In this document: positions 6,299 to 23,092 of the stretch, in pieces
Position numbering within the stretch: position 1 is the stretch's first letter
How the letters are laid out: each line of letters begins with the position of its first letter
Virus record (IMG/VR): IMGVR_UViG_3300043331_002212
Location: 1 to 24,556 of that record
Direction: 5' to 3' (one strand)
Source: a virus
Length of the DNA: 24,556 bases
Notes under the pieces: model-generated
Told to the model about the DNA's origin: nothing
Seen by the model: only the letters and a program-made list of their open reading frames with translations
Databases searched by the model: none
Translations under genes and position numbers: made by a program

Positions 6299-6568
6299 AT
6301 GAGTTGGACTCTAGTTGAAGAAGACATTCCAAATGAAAACGGATACTATTGGACTTTTATAGTAGGTAAAAAGCCCAAGTTATGCCGTTTTGAAAATGAT
6401 AGCTTTGGACTCGGCGACGACGACTTTAATATAGTCGCCTGGGAACCGTGCGAGCCGCCTAGCTTGCAGGATCTAAAAGACCGTCTTGGAAGTCGGTTAT
6501 GTATTTCACAAGCGTCGGTGAATACAGATGTCGATTCTTCAAGATTGTGTCAGAATCTTGCCTCGTAG
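6299..6568 (+). CDS. DUF551-like protein with extended C-terminus
   Basis: The 89-residue product begins MSWTLVEEDIPNENGYYWTF and reaches 'NIVAWEPCEPP' near residue 53. DUF551 phage proteins begin with 'W...E..P..' and end in a 'W.PLP.PP' motif, so the recognisable domain is complete by about residue 55. The remaining 33 residues lie antisense to the last 110 bases of the convergent gene at 6459-6962 and have no family character. This suggests the original stop was lost and reading continues by chance. The ATG follows the upstream stop directly. DUF551 has no established function. Confidence 0.6.
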   Translation: MSWTLVEEDIPNENGYYWTFIVGKKPKLCRFENDSFGLGDDDFNIVAWEPCEPPSLQDLKDRLGSRLCISQASVNTDVDSSRLCQNLAS

Positions 6569-8994: not shown

Positions 8995-9250
8995 ATTATC
9001 ATCTCCTATAGGTGGGCTATTCTTTCTTTACTGTACAGTTTCAAATAATTTTTTTACACACTGAAAATAAATTACCAAATCACGAAGAAAATTTAACACC
9101 TTGTCAGTTTACCAAAATGCAGTGAACGGTTGTAAAAAAAATACTTTCCATATATAGTGGGAAGTCCATATTCACCATGTGGAGTTCCTCAGGTATTTAG
9201 TGCAGCTTTATATTTGGGGGACTTTTTCTCTCCCATTCTCTGGTGCGTTT
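8995..9250. other. 256-bp gene-free region between portal and tiny-gene unit
   Basis: No convincing gene is present. It holds the TCAAATAATT element (9041-9050), which on the minus strand is part of TGTAAAAAAATTATTTGA, plus the palindrome CTGTACAG (9031-9038). A+T-rich DNA fills most of the rest. A 24-codon reading frame at 9104-9178 on the minus strand has a GAGGA upstream but no recognisable product. I see no hairpin with a T run that would clearly end the portal transcript. Confidence 0.6.
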
Positions 9251-11395: not shown

Positions 11396-11584
11396 ATGAT
11401 TAGCCGCTACGCTTTTATGATCATTATTAGCCTTATGGTGGCCTTCATGTGGCGAATCATGGTCATCATTGAAAATGATGTAGAAGAGGCTAAGAAAGAT
11501 ATTCACAAAATGATAGAGATGCAAAGGGAAATCAAAGATGGACTGGATCGACTTCAAGGAAAAGTGCCCAAAGGTGGGGGATAA
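11396..11584 (+). CDS. small single-helix membrane protein with coiled tail
   Basis: The 62-residue product has a membrane helix near residues 5-25 (YAFMIIISLMVAFMWRIMVI) followed by a charged coil (VEEAKKDIHKMIEMQREIKD). AAGG lies about 10 bases before the ATG. It opens the second plus-strand island and is followed by an overlapping DUF551-like gene, exactly as at 6110-6568, though the two membrane proteins are not closely similar in sequence. Function unknown. Confidence 0.55.
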   Translation: MISRYAFMIIISLMVAFMWRIMVIIENDVEEAKKDIHKMIEMQREIKDGLDRLQGKVPKGGG

Positions 11585-11723
11585 GATCGAAGTGATGTAT
11601 AAGGAATTATTTGGAATTGTAAATACAAAAAAAATGATCTGGGGCCAGAAAGATCAAGATGATATAAAATACAGCCTACTGCTATCAAAATGGAGGCCTC
11701 TTGAAGAAGGGAACAGAACCTAG
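11538..11723 (+). CDS. short DUF551-like protein
   Basis: The 61-residue product begins MDWIDFKEKCPKVGDKIEVM and ends YSLLLSKWRPLEEGNRT. The opening 'W..F.E..P..GD.I.V' and the closing 'W.PL' are the two landmarks of DUF551-type phage proteins, here with a very short interior. The start overlaps the previous gene by 47 bases, and no strong ribosome site is visible, so it may depend on coupling. It is one of four DUF551-like genes in the window. Confidence 0.5.
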   Translation: MDWIDFKEKCPKVGDKIEVMYKELFGIVNTKKMIWGQKDQDDIKYSLLLSKWRPLEEGNRT

Positions 11724-11755: not shown

Positions 11756-11983
11756 ATGATGTCTAAAAGAGAGCGAGTTGAGGATTTAGGCAGAATTGCT
11801 GTCTTGTCAAAGGAGATCCTGGATCATCCCTCTTTTGAAATGACAGATATTGACGACTGGAAAAGGCTTCTCACCGACGAAGAACGACTCTATGTTTTCG
11901 TGAATCAGTATAACGACCTTTACAGCAAGGTGGGGGACATCTACGATATTGCTAGATGGGGTGACGATCCCGATGATAATTGA
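11756..11983 (+). CDS. small acidic hypothetical protein
   Basis: The 75-residue product (MMSKRERVEDLGRIAVLSKE, then 'ILDHPSFEMTDIDDWKRLLT') is helical and acidic, ending WGDDPDDN. A stop codon directly upstream in the same frame fixes the start at 11756 or the second ATG at 11759. Its end overlaps the start of the metallophosphoesterase gene by 11 bases, so the two are likely made together. I do not recognise a family. Confidence 0.5.
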   Translation: MMSKRERVEDLGRIAVLSKEILDHPSFEMTDIDDWKRLLTDEERLYVFVNQYNDLYSKVGDIYDIARWGDDPDDN

Positions 11984-12632
11984 CTGTATTGCAGACTTGC
12001 ATGGCCACTATCCCAAGCTAGAAGGCGGCGATCTGCTTATTGTGGCGGGGGACTGGACAAAATCGGACGGAATGGAAGAACTCGAATATTTCGAAGAAGA
12101 GTGGCTATCCAATCAAAATTACAAAAAAATAATCCTAATCTCTGGCAACCACGACAATATATCGTATCAATGCGGATGGAAAGGAAGGGGAAAGATAGAG
12201 TATCTTTGCGACTCTGGAACCGAATTCGAAGGGCTCAAAATCTGGGGCTCACCTTGGACGAAGAGGTTTCCAGGAATGAATCCACGGTGCATGGCTTTTA
12301 CGGTTGACACCGACGAAGAATTGGCGGAGAAGTGGGCGTTAATTCCCCAAGACATCGATATCTTGGTTACTCACTCGCCTCCTTATGACATTTTAGATGA
12401 AGTGTTTAATAGAAGTCGTGGATGGAAAGAGAATTGCGGCAGTCAATCTTTATTAAAAAGAGTGATGGAAATTAAACCTAAGCTCCACGTATTTGGTCAT
12501 ATTCACGAGTCCTACGGGAATTTTCATCTTAAAAGTTCTAAGTTTCACGACAAAGATATTCTTTTCGTCAACGCCTCTCATGTCAACGAGCGCTATGAAC
12601 CTGTGAATAAACCAATTAGGGTGATTTTATGA
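11973..12632 (+). CDS. calcineurin-like metallophosphoesterase (MPPED/UPF0046-type)
   Basis: The 219-residue product has the full set of metal-binding motifs: DLHGH (D8, H10), GD (D27), GNHD (58-61), 'VTHSPP' and 'GHIHES' near residue 180. Wording such as 'YLCDSGTEFEGLKIWGSPWT', 'LAEKWALIPQDIDILVTHSP' and 'KPKLHVFGHIHE' closely follows the MPPED/UPF0046 group of binuclear metal phosphodiesterases. Known members cleave cyclic nucleotides or phosphodiesters. I start at ATG 11973, which places the first motif as in the family; a TTG at 11949 would add eight non-family residues. Its stop overlaps the next ATG (ATGA). In a phage it might degrade a nucleotide signal, for example one used in host defence; this is inference. 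Confidence 0.85.
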   Translation: MIIDCIADLHGHYPKLEGGDLLIVAGDWTKSDGMEELEYFEEEWLSNQNYKKIILISGNHDNISYQCGWKGRGKIEYLCDSGTEFEGLKIWGSPWTKRFPGMNPRCMAFTVDTDEELAEKWALIPQDIDILVTHSPPYDILDEVFNRSRGWKENCGSQSLLKRVMEIKPKLHVFGHIHESYGNFHLKSSKFHDKDILFVNASHVNERYEPVNKPIRVIL

Positions 12633-13219
12633 ATTACGAAGTTGAGTACGGGTCTGAGTACAATACAAGATGTGTCAGTTCCTCCAATTGCAGAATGCTG
12701 GACGGGGAAGGCAACGTCATTTTATGTAAATGTGGGAAGCCTGCGGGATCTGGCATAGGCGGGAAAGAAGCCTATAGTGTTTGGTGCTCCGATTGCTCTC
12801 CTTTGAGCAAAGAAGCGGTCAAGGAGGGTGATTTTGTGAAATGGATTAGCATCAAAGAAAGGCTCCCCGATCTCGAGTGGAGTGAGCCTGATCAAGAAGG
12901 AAAGAAAAGTTGGGCTCCCCAACAAGTTCTTCTTCTAAGAAAGTTAAAATACTGCAATGGAGAAACCAGACAGGTATGCAGTGTTGGAGAGTACGATACG
13001 ACAGGAATTCCATCAGTGTGGAGAACATGGCACGAATACGTCGACGAAGAGGGCTGTGATGACACTGATGGGCGCGTTGTAGACGACGTTACCCACTGGA
13101 TGCCGCTGCCAGCCCCTCCTACAGAAGATGCGCCCCCAAAACAAGACTACGACGAAATCATCTCAGACTACGCTAGCGAACCTACGACACAAATTCGGAA
13201 AAATGGGAAAAGAAAATAA
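12629..13219 (+). CDS. zinc-ribbon and DUF551 fusion protein
   Basis: The 196-residue product has an N-terminal cysteine cluster (CKCGKPAGSG... then WCSDC, near residues 33-56) that can hold zinc. A DUF551 domain runs from about residue 71 (KWISIKERLPDLEWSEP) to 'VTHWMPLPAPP' near residue 155, with VLLLRK and VGEYDTTG inside. A polar tail follows (QDYDEIISDYASEP). It starts within the stop of the phosphoesterase gene. The DNA for 'WISIKE' and for 'VTHWMPLP' is identical to blocks in the next gene. DUF551 is common in tailed phage accessory regions and has no proven function. Confidence 0.68.
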   Translation: MNYEVEYGSEYNTRCVSSSNCRMLDGEGNVILCKCGKPAGSGIGGKEAYSVWCSDCSPLSKEAVKEGDFVKWISIKERLPDLEWSEPDQEGKKSWAPQQVLLLRKLKYCNGETRQVCSVGEYDTTGIPSVWRTWHEYVDEEGCDDTDGRVVDDVTHWMPLPAPPTEDAPPKQDYDEIISDYASEPTTQIRKNGKRK

Positions 13220-13628
13220 GAAGTGCCCAAAATGCTCAAGGCCCCTGTATGAATTCGAGGGGGTTGAGTATTGCGACAGCTGCTTATCAGGCAAAGGTAA
13301 GTCGGTTTGGATTAGCATCAAAGAAAAAACTCCCCCTACTTCGATTGAAAAAGAGCTGCCGTTTGTGATAGCCCTTCATTCAGTATATGGGGTGGGAGTG
13401 GCGTGGTTTTGGAAGTTCCAAGATGGGGATGGCATTAAAGAAGAACTAGAGGAAGAATTTGAAGATAAATATTTATGCTCGTGTCATTTTATAAAAAACA
13501 CAGTAGATGGCAATGATTGTATAGACGAAGAAGACGACATAGATATTTTTGAAAACGATCCACACTTCCCAAACTTAGGCACCGTTACCCACTGGATGCC
13601 GCTGCCTGACGCTCCAAACATCGAATGA
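13203..13628 (+). CDS. zinc-ribbon and DUF551 fusion protein, second copy
   Basis: I start at ATG 13203, giving 141 residues: MGKENKKCPKCSRPLYEFEG with the second zinc pair at YCDSC, then VWISIKEKTPPTSIEKELPF opening the DUF551 domain and 'GTVTHWMPLPDAP' closing it. An earlier in-frame ATG at 13128 lies inside the previous gene in another frame and would add shadow residues. The zinc ribbon is a neat CxxC-CxxC pair, unlike the looser cluster in the first copy. The two genes share identical DNA at the domain's edges but differ in between, and overlap by 17 bases. The next gene starts in its stop (ATGA). Confidence 0.68.
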   Translation: MGKENKKCPKCSRPLYEFEGVEYCDSCLSGKGKSVWISIKEKTPPTSIEKELPFVIALHSVYGVGVAWFWKFQDGDGIKEELEEEFEDKYLCSCHFIKNTVDGNDCIDEEDDIDIFENDPHFPNLGTVTHWMPLPDAPNIE

Positions 13629-19815: not shown

Positions 19816-20067
19816 ATGAAAGAACATACTCTTACTTTAGGTTTTCTGAAAAGCGAAAACCTATCCCCCACAGCCAAACTTCGACATTTAACGGACGAAC
19901 TAGTAATAAATATTTTAGGCGTTCGCATGAAAGATGAATGGTGGCTCGATGGGCCTTACCAATTACCAGAATACAACGACGAGGAAGACGATGACGGCGA
20001 AGATGCCTACGATCAGGCTTTATACCAAGAGGAAAGGAGGTTCTATGACTACATTGCAAAAATATGA
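19816..20067 (+). CDS. small acidic early protein
   Basis: The 83-residue product (MKEHTLTLGFLKSENLSPTA, then 'LRHLTDELVINILGVRMKDE') has a strongly acidic middle (YNDEEDDDGEDAYDQA) and a final helix. It is the first gene after the early promoter, with GAGG before its ATG, and overlaps the Bet gene by 23 bases. Acidic first-early proteins often act as DNA mimics or inhibitors of host systems; that is speculation here. No family is recognised. Confidence 0.55.
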   Translation: MKEHTLTLGFLKSENLSPTAKLRHLTDELVINILGVRMKDEWWLDGPYQLPEYNDEEDDDGEDAYDQALYQEERRFYDYIAKI

Positions 20068-20803
20068 AGAACAGAGTTTTGATATCGAATCTAAAAGAGA
20101 TCTCATCAAGAGTGTCTTTTTCAAGGGGTGCTCTAATGACGAAGTTGAGCTTTTCTTGCATGTCTGTAAAAAGACGGGGCTAGACCCAATGATGAAGCAA
20201 ATCTATCCTGTAAAGAGATGGTCAAGTGCCGAGAAAAAAGAGGTGATGACTTGCCAGACATCTATTGATGGATTTCGCTTGATTGCGGAAAGGACGGGAA
20301 GATACTCTCCAGGCCGTGAATCGACTTACACCTACGACAAGGATGGAAATCTGATGTCTGCTACTTCTTATGTCAAGAAAATGACATCTGACGGAACCTG
20401 GCACGAAGTCGCTGCGACGGCCTTCTTTGATGAATATGCTCAGAAAAATAAAGAAGGAAAGTTAACGCAGTTTTGGGAAAGAATGCAGCACGTGATGTTG
20501 GCAAAATGCGCTGAGGCTTTAGCCTTGAGGAAAGCATTTCCTGCTGATCTTTCCGGAATTTACACCTCCGATGAAATGGGGCAGGCTCATAACGAAGTCA
20601 AAGCGCATCCTGTGGTGGAGCAACCGGCTCTGATTACCCCCCAACAAGCCGATGAAATTGAGTCTCTGTTGAAAGGAAGGGATTCTCTGAAGTCGAAATT
20701 GCTTTCTTGGGCTGAAATTGAAAGCGTTTCAGAATTGGCAGCTTCTAAGCATGCAGGCGTTATGAAAGCCATTGAAAACCACATCGCCAAAGAAGGGTCT
20801 TAA
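20045..20803 (+). CDS. bet: single-strand annealing protein, Bet/RecT type
   Basis: I start at ATG 20045, preceded by a strong AAAGGAGG, giving 252 residues; the longer frame from 19934 lies inside the previous gene. Key features of the Bet family are 'ELFLHVCKKTGLDPMMKQIY' (45-65), then 'QTSIDGFRLIAERTGRY', 'HEVAATAFFDEYAQ', and 'FWERMQHVMLAKCAEALALR' with 'KAFPADLSGIYTSDEMG'. The C-terminal 60 residues form a small helical domain that in lambda Beta binds the exonuclease. The protein anneals complementary single strands during recombination and replication. Its stop shares one base with the start of the YqaJ nuclease. Confidence 0.9.
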   Translation: MTTLQKYEEQSFDIESKRDLIKSVFFKGCSNDEVELFLHVCKKTGLDPMMKQIYPVKRWSSAEKKEVMTCQTSIDGFRLIAERTGRYSPGRESTYTYDKDGNLMSATSYVKKMTSDGTWHEVAATAFFDEYAQKNKEGKLTQFWERMQHVMLAKCAEALALRKAFPADLSGIYTSDEMGQAHNEVKAHPVVEQPALITPQQADEIESLLKGRDSLKSKLLSWAEIESVSELAASKHAGVMKAIENHIAKEGS

Positions 20804-21681
20804 TGGAACAAGATACTCAAGAATGGCATGAGTTTCGACGCAACAAGATAGGGGCCAGCGATGCTCCTATAATTTTGGGAATCTCTCCTTGGAAGACTCC
20901 CTATCAATTGTGGGAAGAGAAAGTTTTTGGGAAAGTTTATGAACAAACCTCATCGATGGCAAGGGGAAAGGCTTTAGAGCCTCTAGCGCGTGAGACTTTT
21001 GAGAAGATGACCGGAATCCCTGTGATGCCAAAAGTTGTCGTCCATAAGCAAAGAAAGTGGCAGATGGCCAGTTTGGATGGAATCACCTTTGACAACACAA
21101 CAATTGTGGAGATCAAATGTCCCAGTGCAGAAATTCATGGGATGGCAAAAGAGGGTAAAATCCCTGACCATTATATGGCGCAGATCCAGCATCAGCTTGC
21201 TGTTACGGAGGCTCAGAAAGCGTTCTACTTTAGCTTCGATGGGGAAAAAGGGGCTTTAGTCGAAGTATTCGAAAATGAAGAATTCATCTCCGACCTCGTG
21301 GAAAAAGAGGAGAAGTTTTATGGCTTGATGATGAATCAAGAACCTCCGATTTTGACAGAAAGAGATTATGAAGTTCGAGAAGATGAACAATGGAAGCTTG
21401 TAGCTGATGAATGGCTGAGTGTTCATGCAAGCTTGAAGAGTCTAGAAGAAAAAGAGGAAGCGCTTAGGCAACAACTCTTGCATCTATCTAAAGACAGGAA
21501 CACCAAGGGAGCTGGCATCATGCTTACCAAGTATGCATGCAAGGGGAGGGTCGATTACGACGCTGTGCCAGAACTAAAAAATGTAAATCTAAACCAATAT
21601 AGGAAAGCATCTTGCCAAAAGTGGAGAATCTCCGCTTGTCAACAAAGAGACGGGGATGGTATATCCAAGAGTAGCATCTGA
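20803..21681 (+). CDS. YqaJ-type viral 5'-3' exonuclease
   Basis: The 292-residue product is the nuclease partner of Bet, digesting one strand of broken DNA. PD-(D/E)XK-type landmarks are GASD (17-20), 'MARGKALEPLAR' (E59), 'ASLDGI' (D92), 'VEIKCPS' (E103, K105) and 'YMAQIQHQL' (Q127, Q129). All match the YqaJ/lambda Exo class. The C-terminal third has a helical coil (LKSLEEKEEALRQQLLHL). The ATG overlaps the Bet stop by one base, showing a coupled pair, and a strong terminator follows 33 bases after the stop. Confidence 0.9.
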   Translation: MEQDTQEWHEFRRNKIGASDAPIILGISPWKTPYQLWEEKVFGKVYEQTSSMARGKALEPLARETFEKMTGIPVMPKVVVHKQRKWQMASLDGITFDNTTIVEIKCPSAEIHGMAKEGKIPDHYMAQIQHQLAVTEAQKAFYFSFDGEKGALVEVFENEEFISDLVEKEEKFYGLMMNQEPPILTERDYEVREDEQWKLVADEWLSVHASLKSLEEKEEALRQQLLHLSKDRNTKGAGIMLTKYACKGRVDYDAVPELKNVNLNQYRKASCQKWRISACQQRDGDGISKSSI

Positions 21682-22192: not shown

Positions 22193-23092
22193 ATGTCTTA
22201 TACAGAAACAACCCATTCGTTTGGAATCGAAATCGCAATGAAATATGGGATCGAACAAGCCATTCTGATTCATCACTTCAAATATTGGATCAAGCTAAAC
22301 CGAAGAAAAAACAGTGAAAAACATTTCAAAGAAGGACGTTGGTGGACATATCAAAAGCGATCTGAAATTCAAGCGCACATCCCCTATTTGACAGAAGAAA
22401 GCATTCGTCATCATTGTGAAGAGCTGGTCAAAAAAAACGTTCTCATAAAAAAGAATTTTAACAAATCAAAGATAGACAAGACCTTATGGTATGCTTTTGT
22501 AGATGAGTCCGAATTTTTAGGCACCGAAGATTCAAATAATGTTTACGAAAGGGGAAAACCCCAATCGACTGGGGAAAACCCCAATCGAGGTGGGGAAAAC
22601 CCCAATGCAATACCAGATACTATAACTACAGATACTGAAAAAGATATTCTTCGAATATCTAAAAAGAGAAAAAAAGTTTCACCAACGCCAAGGGTGGAAA
22701 GAGAGCCTGGGGTTTTCACAACCGACCAAGAGCACGCCAAGCTATTAGAAAGATTTGGAGAAAGGGAGCTCAAGGAGCGCTACTTTGAAGTCTCAAGATG
22801 GAAGGGAAAGAATGGTGTAGGAGGCGGAGATGATTATGCAACCATCATTAAGTGGGTCATAAATCAAGAAAAGGTCACCCCTAGGGCCGAAATTGCAAAA
22901 GAAAACAAAGATCTAGCAACCAAGGCATTAGAAAAATTTCCCCACATCAGTCATCATGTGGAAATTAAAGAAAAATGCATTGTTTTCGCCTACACAGGAT
23001 GCTATGAAGATATTTATTTTGAAGACAATGGCTTTAAAGAGCGTCTTTTTTCTCGTCTAAGGAAAATGAATCTATCACCGGAGGCTTTATAA
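22193..23092 (+). CDS. O-like replication initiator with iteron-coded linker
   Basis: The 299-residue product has an N-terminal winged-helix region (1-105: 'FGIEIAMKYGIEQAILIHHF', 'EIQAHIPYLTEESIRHHCEE', 'KTLWYAF'), as in phage replication initiators and replisome organisers. Next is a repeat linker near 118-140 (STGENPNRGGENPNA), whose DNA is the iteron array, followed by a Thr-rich strip (DTITTDTEK) and a C-terminal domain with AKLLERFGERELKERYFEVS. This 'HTH - GENP repeats - C domain' layout is common in phages that hold their origin inside the initiator gene, as lambda O does. A good AAGGGAA site precedes the ATG. No helicase gene follows, so host DnaB is likely recruited. Confidence 0.78.
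   Translation: MSYTETTHSFGIEIAMKYGIEQAILIHHFKYWIKLNRRKNSEKHFKEGRWWTYQKRSEIQAHIPYLTEESIRHHCEELVKKNVLIKKNFNKSKIDKTLWYAFVDESEFLGTEDSNNVYERGKPQSTGENPNRGGENPNAIPDTITTDTEKDILRISKKRKKVSPTPRVEREPGVFTTDQEHAKLLERFGERELKERYFEVSRWKGKNGVGGGDDYATIIKWVINQEKVTPRAEIAKENKDLATKALEKFPHISHHVEIKEKCIVFAYTGCYEDIYFEDNGFKERLFSRLRKMNLSPEAL
22551..22608. repeat. origin iterons (three copies of GGGGAAAACCCCAATCGA)
   Basis: GGGGAAAACCCCAATCGA starts at 22551 and 22571, and a third copy at 22592 (GGGGAAAACCCCAATGC), so the repeats are spaced 20 and 21 bases, about two helical turns. Each core is a GGGG/CCCC mirror. An A+T-rich stretch follows (22609-22680) and could unwind. This is the expected make-up of a phage replication origin read by the initiator that it lies within. 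Confidence 0.75.

Follow-up and report, generated by a model that had tools for sequence, protein, structure and literature searches.

In the Type I restriction specificity subunits of bacteria (hsdS), repeats x and y flank a variable recognition domain, and recombination at these repeats shifts the variable part and alters copy number, a process named DOMO (Furuta 2011, PMC3077401). For temperate phages, the sections cited here report traces of homology at about 30% of mosaics, with small gene fragments often exchanged (De Paepe 2014, PMC3945230), and describe phage annealing proteins as tolerant of divergence, such recombinases being able to exchange diverged DNA (PMC3945230, PMC2327257). 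Here, we analyzed two neighboring genes with a DUF551 domain in the IMG/VR virus record IMGVR_UViG_3300043331_002212 (24,556 bases, possibly a fragment; hereafter “the window”), in which the two domains share identical DNA at both edges and unrelated DNA between them. These twins probably belong to a pool of DUF551 cassettes that extends across phages, with interiors exchanged via joints at the domain edges. In other phages, sequence comparisons show that interiors are exchanged with break points at the edges, and across unrelated phages particular synonymous codons are kept at both edges and not in the interiors.

We regard DOMO in hsdS (PMC3077401) as the closest working analogue: in other phages, the variable part of DUF551 likewise lies between repeats and is moved at them, a likeness of working and not of common descent. 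Unlike DOMO, which in the sections cited concerns bacterial hsdS with two target domains per protein, DUF551 is an accessory domain of phages that moves from one phage to another and among different host proteins. Mosaicism driven by Rad52-like recombinases (De Paepe 2014, PMC3945230; Martinsohn 2008, PMC2327257) resembles DUF551 in its exchange between phages at partly identical sequence; the traces reported in the cited parts of these papers are tied to no one domain, whereas DUF551 joints lie within a single domain, with synonymous sites that stay conserved across unrelated phages. Lambdoid and Stx phages have mosaic Ea22 proteins (PMC10834534, PMC7093339, PMC8614690) that come from the same enteric gene region and vary in their C-terminal domains, but what the cited sections describe is whole C-terminal domains differing among a few phages, as opposed to the inside of a domain being exchanged via DNA-conserved edges. 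Finally, the idea of boundary sequences of phage modules, as cited in PMC3029335, is that a short conserved border serves homologous recombination, as the DUF551 joints would; the latter are found, and lie inside a coding domain. Phage mosaicism, the portability of DUF551, and module borders are already known, and the open-licence literature searched yielded no prior description of intradomain exchange via DNA-conserved edges. DUF551 offers a concrete and testable case of in-frame mosaic making by phages, with intradomain joints conserved as DNA beyond the needs of the protein. A domain of unknown function also becomes a likely swappable binding module, so that different interiors may have different host targets, and its edge sequences could serve to harvest further DUF551 cassettes from databases.

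Shared edges and dissimilar interiors in the window

The first-pass annotation had described twin DUF551 genes with a 19-base and a 23-base block of identical DNA at the domain edges and differing DNA inside, and each element of this description is borne out. Both genes exceed the Pfam gathering cut-off of 22 bits for DUF551 (PF04448; Table 1), and the W-I start and HWMPLP end are present in both. The 19-nt block and the 23-nt block (13088-13110 and 13584-13606) are exact repeats in frame 0 of both genes, the latter match extending one base earlier (13087 and 13583), and the interiors, which differ in length, show no relation when aligned. When every 15-mer of the window was checked, no other direct repeat was common to any two genes, the remaining matches being one short tandem repeat (22546-22606) and a few inverted matches.

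Table 1 Coordinates of the DUF551 twins, their parts, and further genes in the window
Feature	Position	Strand	Remarks
Twin 1	12629..13219	+	Open reading frame (ORF); Cys-rich N-terminal module, C-terminal DUF551; PF04448 38.6 bits, residues 71-165
Twin 2	13203..13628	+	ORF; zinc-ribbon-like N-terminal module, C-terminal DUF551; PF04448 32.3 bits on 13197-13628; in-frame ATG also upstream at 13128
N-edge block, twin 1 (WISIKE)	12842..12860	+	Identical to 13308-13326, 19 nt
N-edge block, twin 2	13308..13326	+	Identical to 12842-12860
C-edge block, twin 1 (VTHWMPLP)	13087..13110	+	Identical to 13583-13606
C-edge block, twin 2	13583..13606	+	Identical to 13087..13110
Interior, twin 1	12869..13086	+	Unalignable to twin 2 interior
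Interior, twin 2	13335..13582	+	Unalignable to twin 1 interior
Metallophosphatase gene	11949-12632		Adjoins the twins
RecT-family single-strand annealing protein	19934..20803	+	PF03837 E 2.4e-27; true start perhaps downstream
YqaJ/RecE-like exonuclease	20803..21681	+	PF09588 E 1.9e-32; phrog_434 E 7.7e-57

Since the two blocks correspond to the conserved motifs at which a single domain begins (WISIKE) and ends (VTHWMPLP), their identity as peptides is expected, and it is the identity of their codons that needs explanation. For the same peptide and the codon usage of this phage, the chance of full codon agreement is 0.008 for the first block, 0.0024 for the second, and 2e-5 for both, and the second block carries codons uncommon in this phage (CCG, 6% of Pro; CTG, 14% of Leu).

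A recent tandem duplication of the twins, followed by fast in-place divergence of the interiors under diversifying selection and without exchange, is an unlikely source of this arrangement. Such a history would fit the adjacency of the twins, whose genes overlap and are both Cys-rich in the N-terminal part, as well as the copy numbers among near relatives: in the window lineage as gathered via the portal gene (12 loci), DUF551 is found in 6 of 12 records, with 1 to 5 copies each, partly in arrays. It fits poorly with interiors that are unalignable and unequal in length, and with the occurrence elsewhere of the same interior in different flanks (see below). In addition, when the N-terminal parts with their N-edge (80 and 45 residues from the start) were compared by blastp, the alignment covered the shared WISIKE segment and nothing else, which makes a very recent whole-gene duplication unlikely. 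One record of the window lineage (L395; collected loci are designated by L numbers) holds two domains with identical 24-nt C-edges at an interior identity of 0.18, a pattern not seen in the other records.

Exchange of interiors in other phages

The first-pass annotation had proposed a comparison with related phage copies, in which the same blocks under strong constraint on codons, without any swapping of interiors, would speak against exchange, and this comparison shows interior swapping to be present. A scan of enteric prophages for the DUF551 N-edge yielded at least 123 N-edge occurrences in the collected loci, at least 111 of them with a C-edge; of the at least 12 others, five had lost the interior. 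At least 100 distinct regions had enough flank to be compared, and these comprised at least 20 interior alleles, at least 37 upstream contexts, and at least 30 downstream contexts, with at least 46 four-gamete sets for upstream context by interior and at least 6 for interior by downstream context. When both flank contexts were equal, at least 18 region pairs had different interiors versus at least 31 with the same interior, the best pair with the same flanks and different interiors (L502 and L462) reaching flank similarities of 0.995 and 1.000. Under a narrower definition of the C-edge, at least 66 regions and at least 3 such pairs were obtained.

The position at which homology ends was evaluated in pairs whose interiors differ and whose adjoining 100 nt are ≥92% identical. 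Among the matches listed, the end of homology fell between +26 and +35 nt of the domain for 117 of the 119 qualifying pairs at the N side and 15-26 nt before the domain end for 116 of 116 at the C side, a test that shows replacement to begin right at the edges and does not address the rarity of breaks elsewhere. We also counted the ends of homologous blocks by context per 16-nt bin, in the regions listed, whose selection via the N-edge favors that site: for blocks of ≥100 nt, 117 context combinations fell in the N-edge bin compared to a mean of 13.3 (maximum 47) per upstream bin, and 54 in the C-edge bin compared to a mean of 3.4 (maximum 26). For blocks of ≥400 nt, the corresponding figures were 11 versus 1.5 at the N-edge and 30 versus 1.3 at the C-edge. 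The joints reached past the edges, by about 19-28 nt on the upstream side of the N-edge and by 12-21 nt beyond the C-edge (interquartile ranges). A similarity search with thresholds of our own choosing recovered 493 between-locus pairs among the collected loci in which both edges were alike as DNA and interior identity was <0.4. Among the sequences inspected, a given interior occurs with two downstream and three upstream contexts, and two of the latter also precede another interior.

Partial matches of this kind are widespread in phage records and bacterial genomes. A 601-nt query around one DUF551 gene matched 204 phage records, 5 of them over ≥80%, and 13 of the 30 matches listed cover little beyond the N-edge. 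Likewise, a 762-nt query from one region matched 2476 of 5426 complete Escherichia coli genomes, only 37 over ≥80%. The E. coli matches listed (60 of 2676 records) sit on chromosomes and on plasmids of about 90-98 kb, and include the domain alone in genes annotated as dATP/dGTP pyrophosphohydrolase or hypothetical, edges without an interior, a flank plus an edge, and an N-edge in an Ea22-like gene.

This pattern was also seen outside the enteric set. A replicate scan with a different N-edge returned 87 stretches, the contigs listed being mostly metagenomic, with 95 occurrences in the collected loci, 80 of them with a C-edge, and 72 distinct regions. Sixteen pairs combined one homologous flank (similarity >0.75, up to 1.00) with different interiors, and 11 pairs had the same interior and dissimilar flanks. 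In three of the replicate contigs there are twins with unlike interiors and N-edge matches at 24, 26, and 27 of 27 nt; they parallel the window most closely, though with C-edges that are less alike (13-19 of 24 nt).

Several further observations were made in the enteric loci. The DUF551 genes of L417, L432, L473, L474, and L494 lack both interior and C-edge, their N-edge being directly joined to the tail (WISCSERMPDDRQEVNQ). Two further DNA-conserved peptide blocks, ALASLE and RIAELE, with sequences that differ on both sides, were noted in enteric DUF551/Ea22-type loci (L007, L033, L076, and others); around ALASLE and the DUF551 edges, 57 genes show free combination of 14 kinds of segment X, 25 of Y, and 20 of Z, with 8 and 12 four-gamete sets. 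The same DUF551 cassette is found at about 96-97% in L523, L527, and L528, which are E. coli plasmids of about 90-98 kb, and in L524, a chromosomal prophage. The L523 plasmid resembles a P1-type phage-plasmid. Among temperate phages, the lambda-like and P1-P2-Mu groups have no recent mosaics in common, as far as the cited section of PMC3945230 reports.

Synonymous codons at the domain edges

We gathered VTHWMPLP domains irrespective of codon choice, with Leu restricted to CTN, among the matches listed in viral contigs and bacterial genomes. A hidden Markov model built from these domains, so that its seeds too come from the matches listed, gave 370 matches, of which 260 distinct domains were kept, and edge codons were compared with the codon usage of their own locus. 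For the C-edge, the set without loci fetched by the exact block comprised 192 non-redundant domains, 169 with the full motif. In these 169, observed counts exceeded expectation (in brackets) for ACC, 110 (54), CAC, 128 (84), GTC, 83 (45), CCG, 84 (55), CTA, 43 (17), and CTG, 81 (60), and GTG was depleted, at 12 (44). The five C-edge codon positions concerned all surpassed the maximum of 1000 random draws, and the last Pro codon did not. The bias persisted without enteric-type edges (146 domains), e.g., ACC at 96 with 47 expected. At the N-edge, in a set that includes loci fetched by the C-edge block, AGG was found 49 times (19 expected) and TTG 54 times (21 expected). The Ser codon AGC in the N-edge was not used as proof: AGY and TCN are not one synonymous step apart, so its retention possibly reflects inertia.

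The codon bias was absent from interiors, was explained neither by dipeptide context nor by guanine-cytosine (GC) content, and was present in all five GC bins with varying strength. A dUTPase motif used as control (72 non-redundant) showed an excess of 0.01 bits per codon, versus 0.21 and 0.18 in the DUF551 set including exact-block loci. A survey of other recurrent hexapeptides, likewise meant as a control, was blurred by shadow-frame peptides of the same DNA and turned up two more conserved blocks, so that no clean control resulted, and Bacteroidota as a negative control gave too few matches (4 of 395 genomes). By host, among the loci from bacterial genomes and with classes assigned by hand from titles for 73 of 80 listed loci, ACC was found in 23 of 33 Clostridia/Firmicutes loci (11.1 expected) and 7 of 9 Enterobacterales loci (2.9 expected).

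These codons would also be retained under pure constraint, i.e., if selection on the protein together with a DNA or RNA signal kept both motif and codons, the identity of the twins being coincidental. Nearly invariant peptides at both edges, and a codon bias across loci of widely different GC, are in line with such constraint. As an account of the twins, it is nonetheless improbable given the low chance of both blocks agreeing under codon usage (see above), the identity of both blocks in only 21 of 32746 between-locus pairs, the interior swapping observed in other phages, and the lack of codon excess in Bacteroidota copies (only 11 loci).

Proposed mechanism and its application to the twins

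In the mechanism we propose, DUF551 would be a small beta barrel with a nearly invariant N-edge (about 27 nt) and C-edge (the last strand, about 24 nt), between which about 30-90 residues would be exchangeable. Because the edges stay alike also as DNA, they could act as short homology joints, at which RecT/Red-type annealing recombination, encoded in this phage, or host recombination would join a new interior in frame. Joining in frame at the edges would leave the barrel intact as a closed structure and the N-terminal module in place, and a barrel that fixed ends hold shut, with only its middle free to change, could take up new interiors without loss of frame. Different interiors may in turn confer different binding targets.

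A model of one enteric DUF551 domain (63 residues, 64 sequences; predicted local distance difference test score, pLDDT, 93.6) has five strands, with the C-edge as the last strand and the N-edge at the start. The nearest folds in PDB are Sm/Hfq, Tudor/PWWP, and designed SH3-type barrels, with middling scores (Foldseek E 0.12, Z at most 5.7), and many viral predictions matching the enteric model are DUF551 proteins. No solved structure was found by sequence search, and for the domain of the window itself only a low-quality model was obtained (pLDDT 76, predicted template modeling score 0.58).

Besides the RecT-family protein and the exonuclease listed in Table 1, the window encodes RusA, and RecT-type annealing is a plausible agent at the DUF551 edges. 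A variable core between conserved ends also resembles, in outline, the products of dedicated variation machines such as a diversity-generating retroelement, a shufflon, or an invertase. We consider it highly improbable that one of these works on the blocks: reverse transcriptase (PF00078), resolvase/invertase (PF00239), and tyrosine recombinase (PF00589) had no match in the 24.6 kb record (perhaps a fragment), neither a third copy of either block nor a template repeat was found in the record, and the interiors are unequal in length and not point-mutated copies.

The first-pass annotation had read the twins as the result of cassette exchange or gene conversion through conserved ends, and as a way to diversify the interior, which would imply selection. 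Exchange is plainly seen in related genes of other phages through swapped interiors, swapped flanks, and four-gamete combinations at the edges, while for the window pair we infer it: one of the twins presumably got its interior, or its edges, in this way. Specifically, an exchanged segment flanked by sequence homologous in both partners was seen in other phages and not for the window genes. Gene conversion within one genome is not upheld as a general rule. When within-locus copies were compared to GC-matched copies of other loci, in a paralogue set that does not include the window twins, within-locus pairs were not significantly closer once loci picked by the exact block had been removed (C-edge, p = 0.11; N-edge, p = 0.55); an initial p = 0.009 at the C-edge, considered as a sign of general within-genome homogenisation, rose to 0.11 after dropping exact-block loci.

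The two blocks of the window differ in their reach. The exact 23-mer at 13088-13110 was found in 20 other viral-contig stretches, always in the open frame VTHWMPLP, and 19 of the 20 have, by eye, an upstream W-(I/V) N-edge, with varied interiors and N-terminal parts; among these loci, L009 resembles L022, and L007 and L008 have a common interior. Within viral contigs, the 23-mer thus recurs in DUF551 genes and the 19-mer does not, so that the C-edge DNA is common property, unlike the window's exact N-edge sequence.

Several results weigh against the reading of the twins as members of an exchanging cassette pool. The exact 19-nt N-edge block occurs in six other viral contigs, none of the six being a DUF551 gene and none leading on to any C-edge. 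The interior of twin 1 had no relatives in viral contigs and phage records (twin 2 was not searched there), neither window interior resembles anything among the 615 collected loci, no interior swap was detected in the window's own lineage, and no relatives having the same flanks as the window pair were found. The lack of general edge homogenisation among DUF551 copies within genomes adds to these points, as does the host distribution of the ACC excess, which is modest in other Proteobacteria (10 of 20, 7.2 expected) and absent in Bacteroidota (5 of 11, 4.3 expected), and hence not universal. Finally, some DNA- or RNA-level constraint alone could yield the codon conservation.

A broader extension of the cassette pool, which we find conceivable yet doubtful, is that DUF551 edges are an evolved recombination currency giving access to an open library of barrel interiors pluggable into many accessory proteins. 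Matching edges would then admit ready-made cores, and for this reason the edges would be maintained as DNA in phages whose hosts belong to different bacterial orders; in enteric phages, a single gene would hold several joints of this type.

Elsewhere in the window, the short ORFs at 11538-11723 and 6299-6568 appear by eye to be diverged copies of DUF551 (WIDFKEKCP..SKWRPLE and MSWTLVEEDIP..AWEPCEPP), without a Pfam match. An inverted 17-nt match joins distant sites around 376-393 and 9215-9231. The tandem repeat at 22546-22606 consists of three 20-nt copies with GGGGAAAACCCC and lies within a replication-initiator-like gene (22193-23092). These copies resemble the iterons of the replication origin within lambda's O gene.
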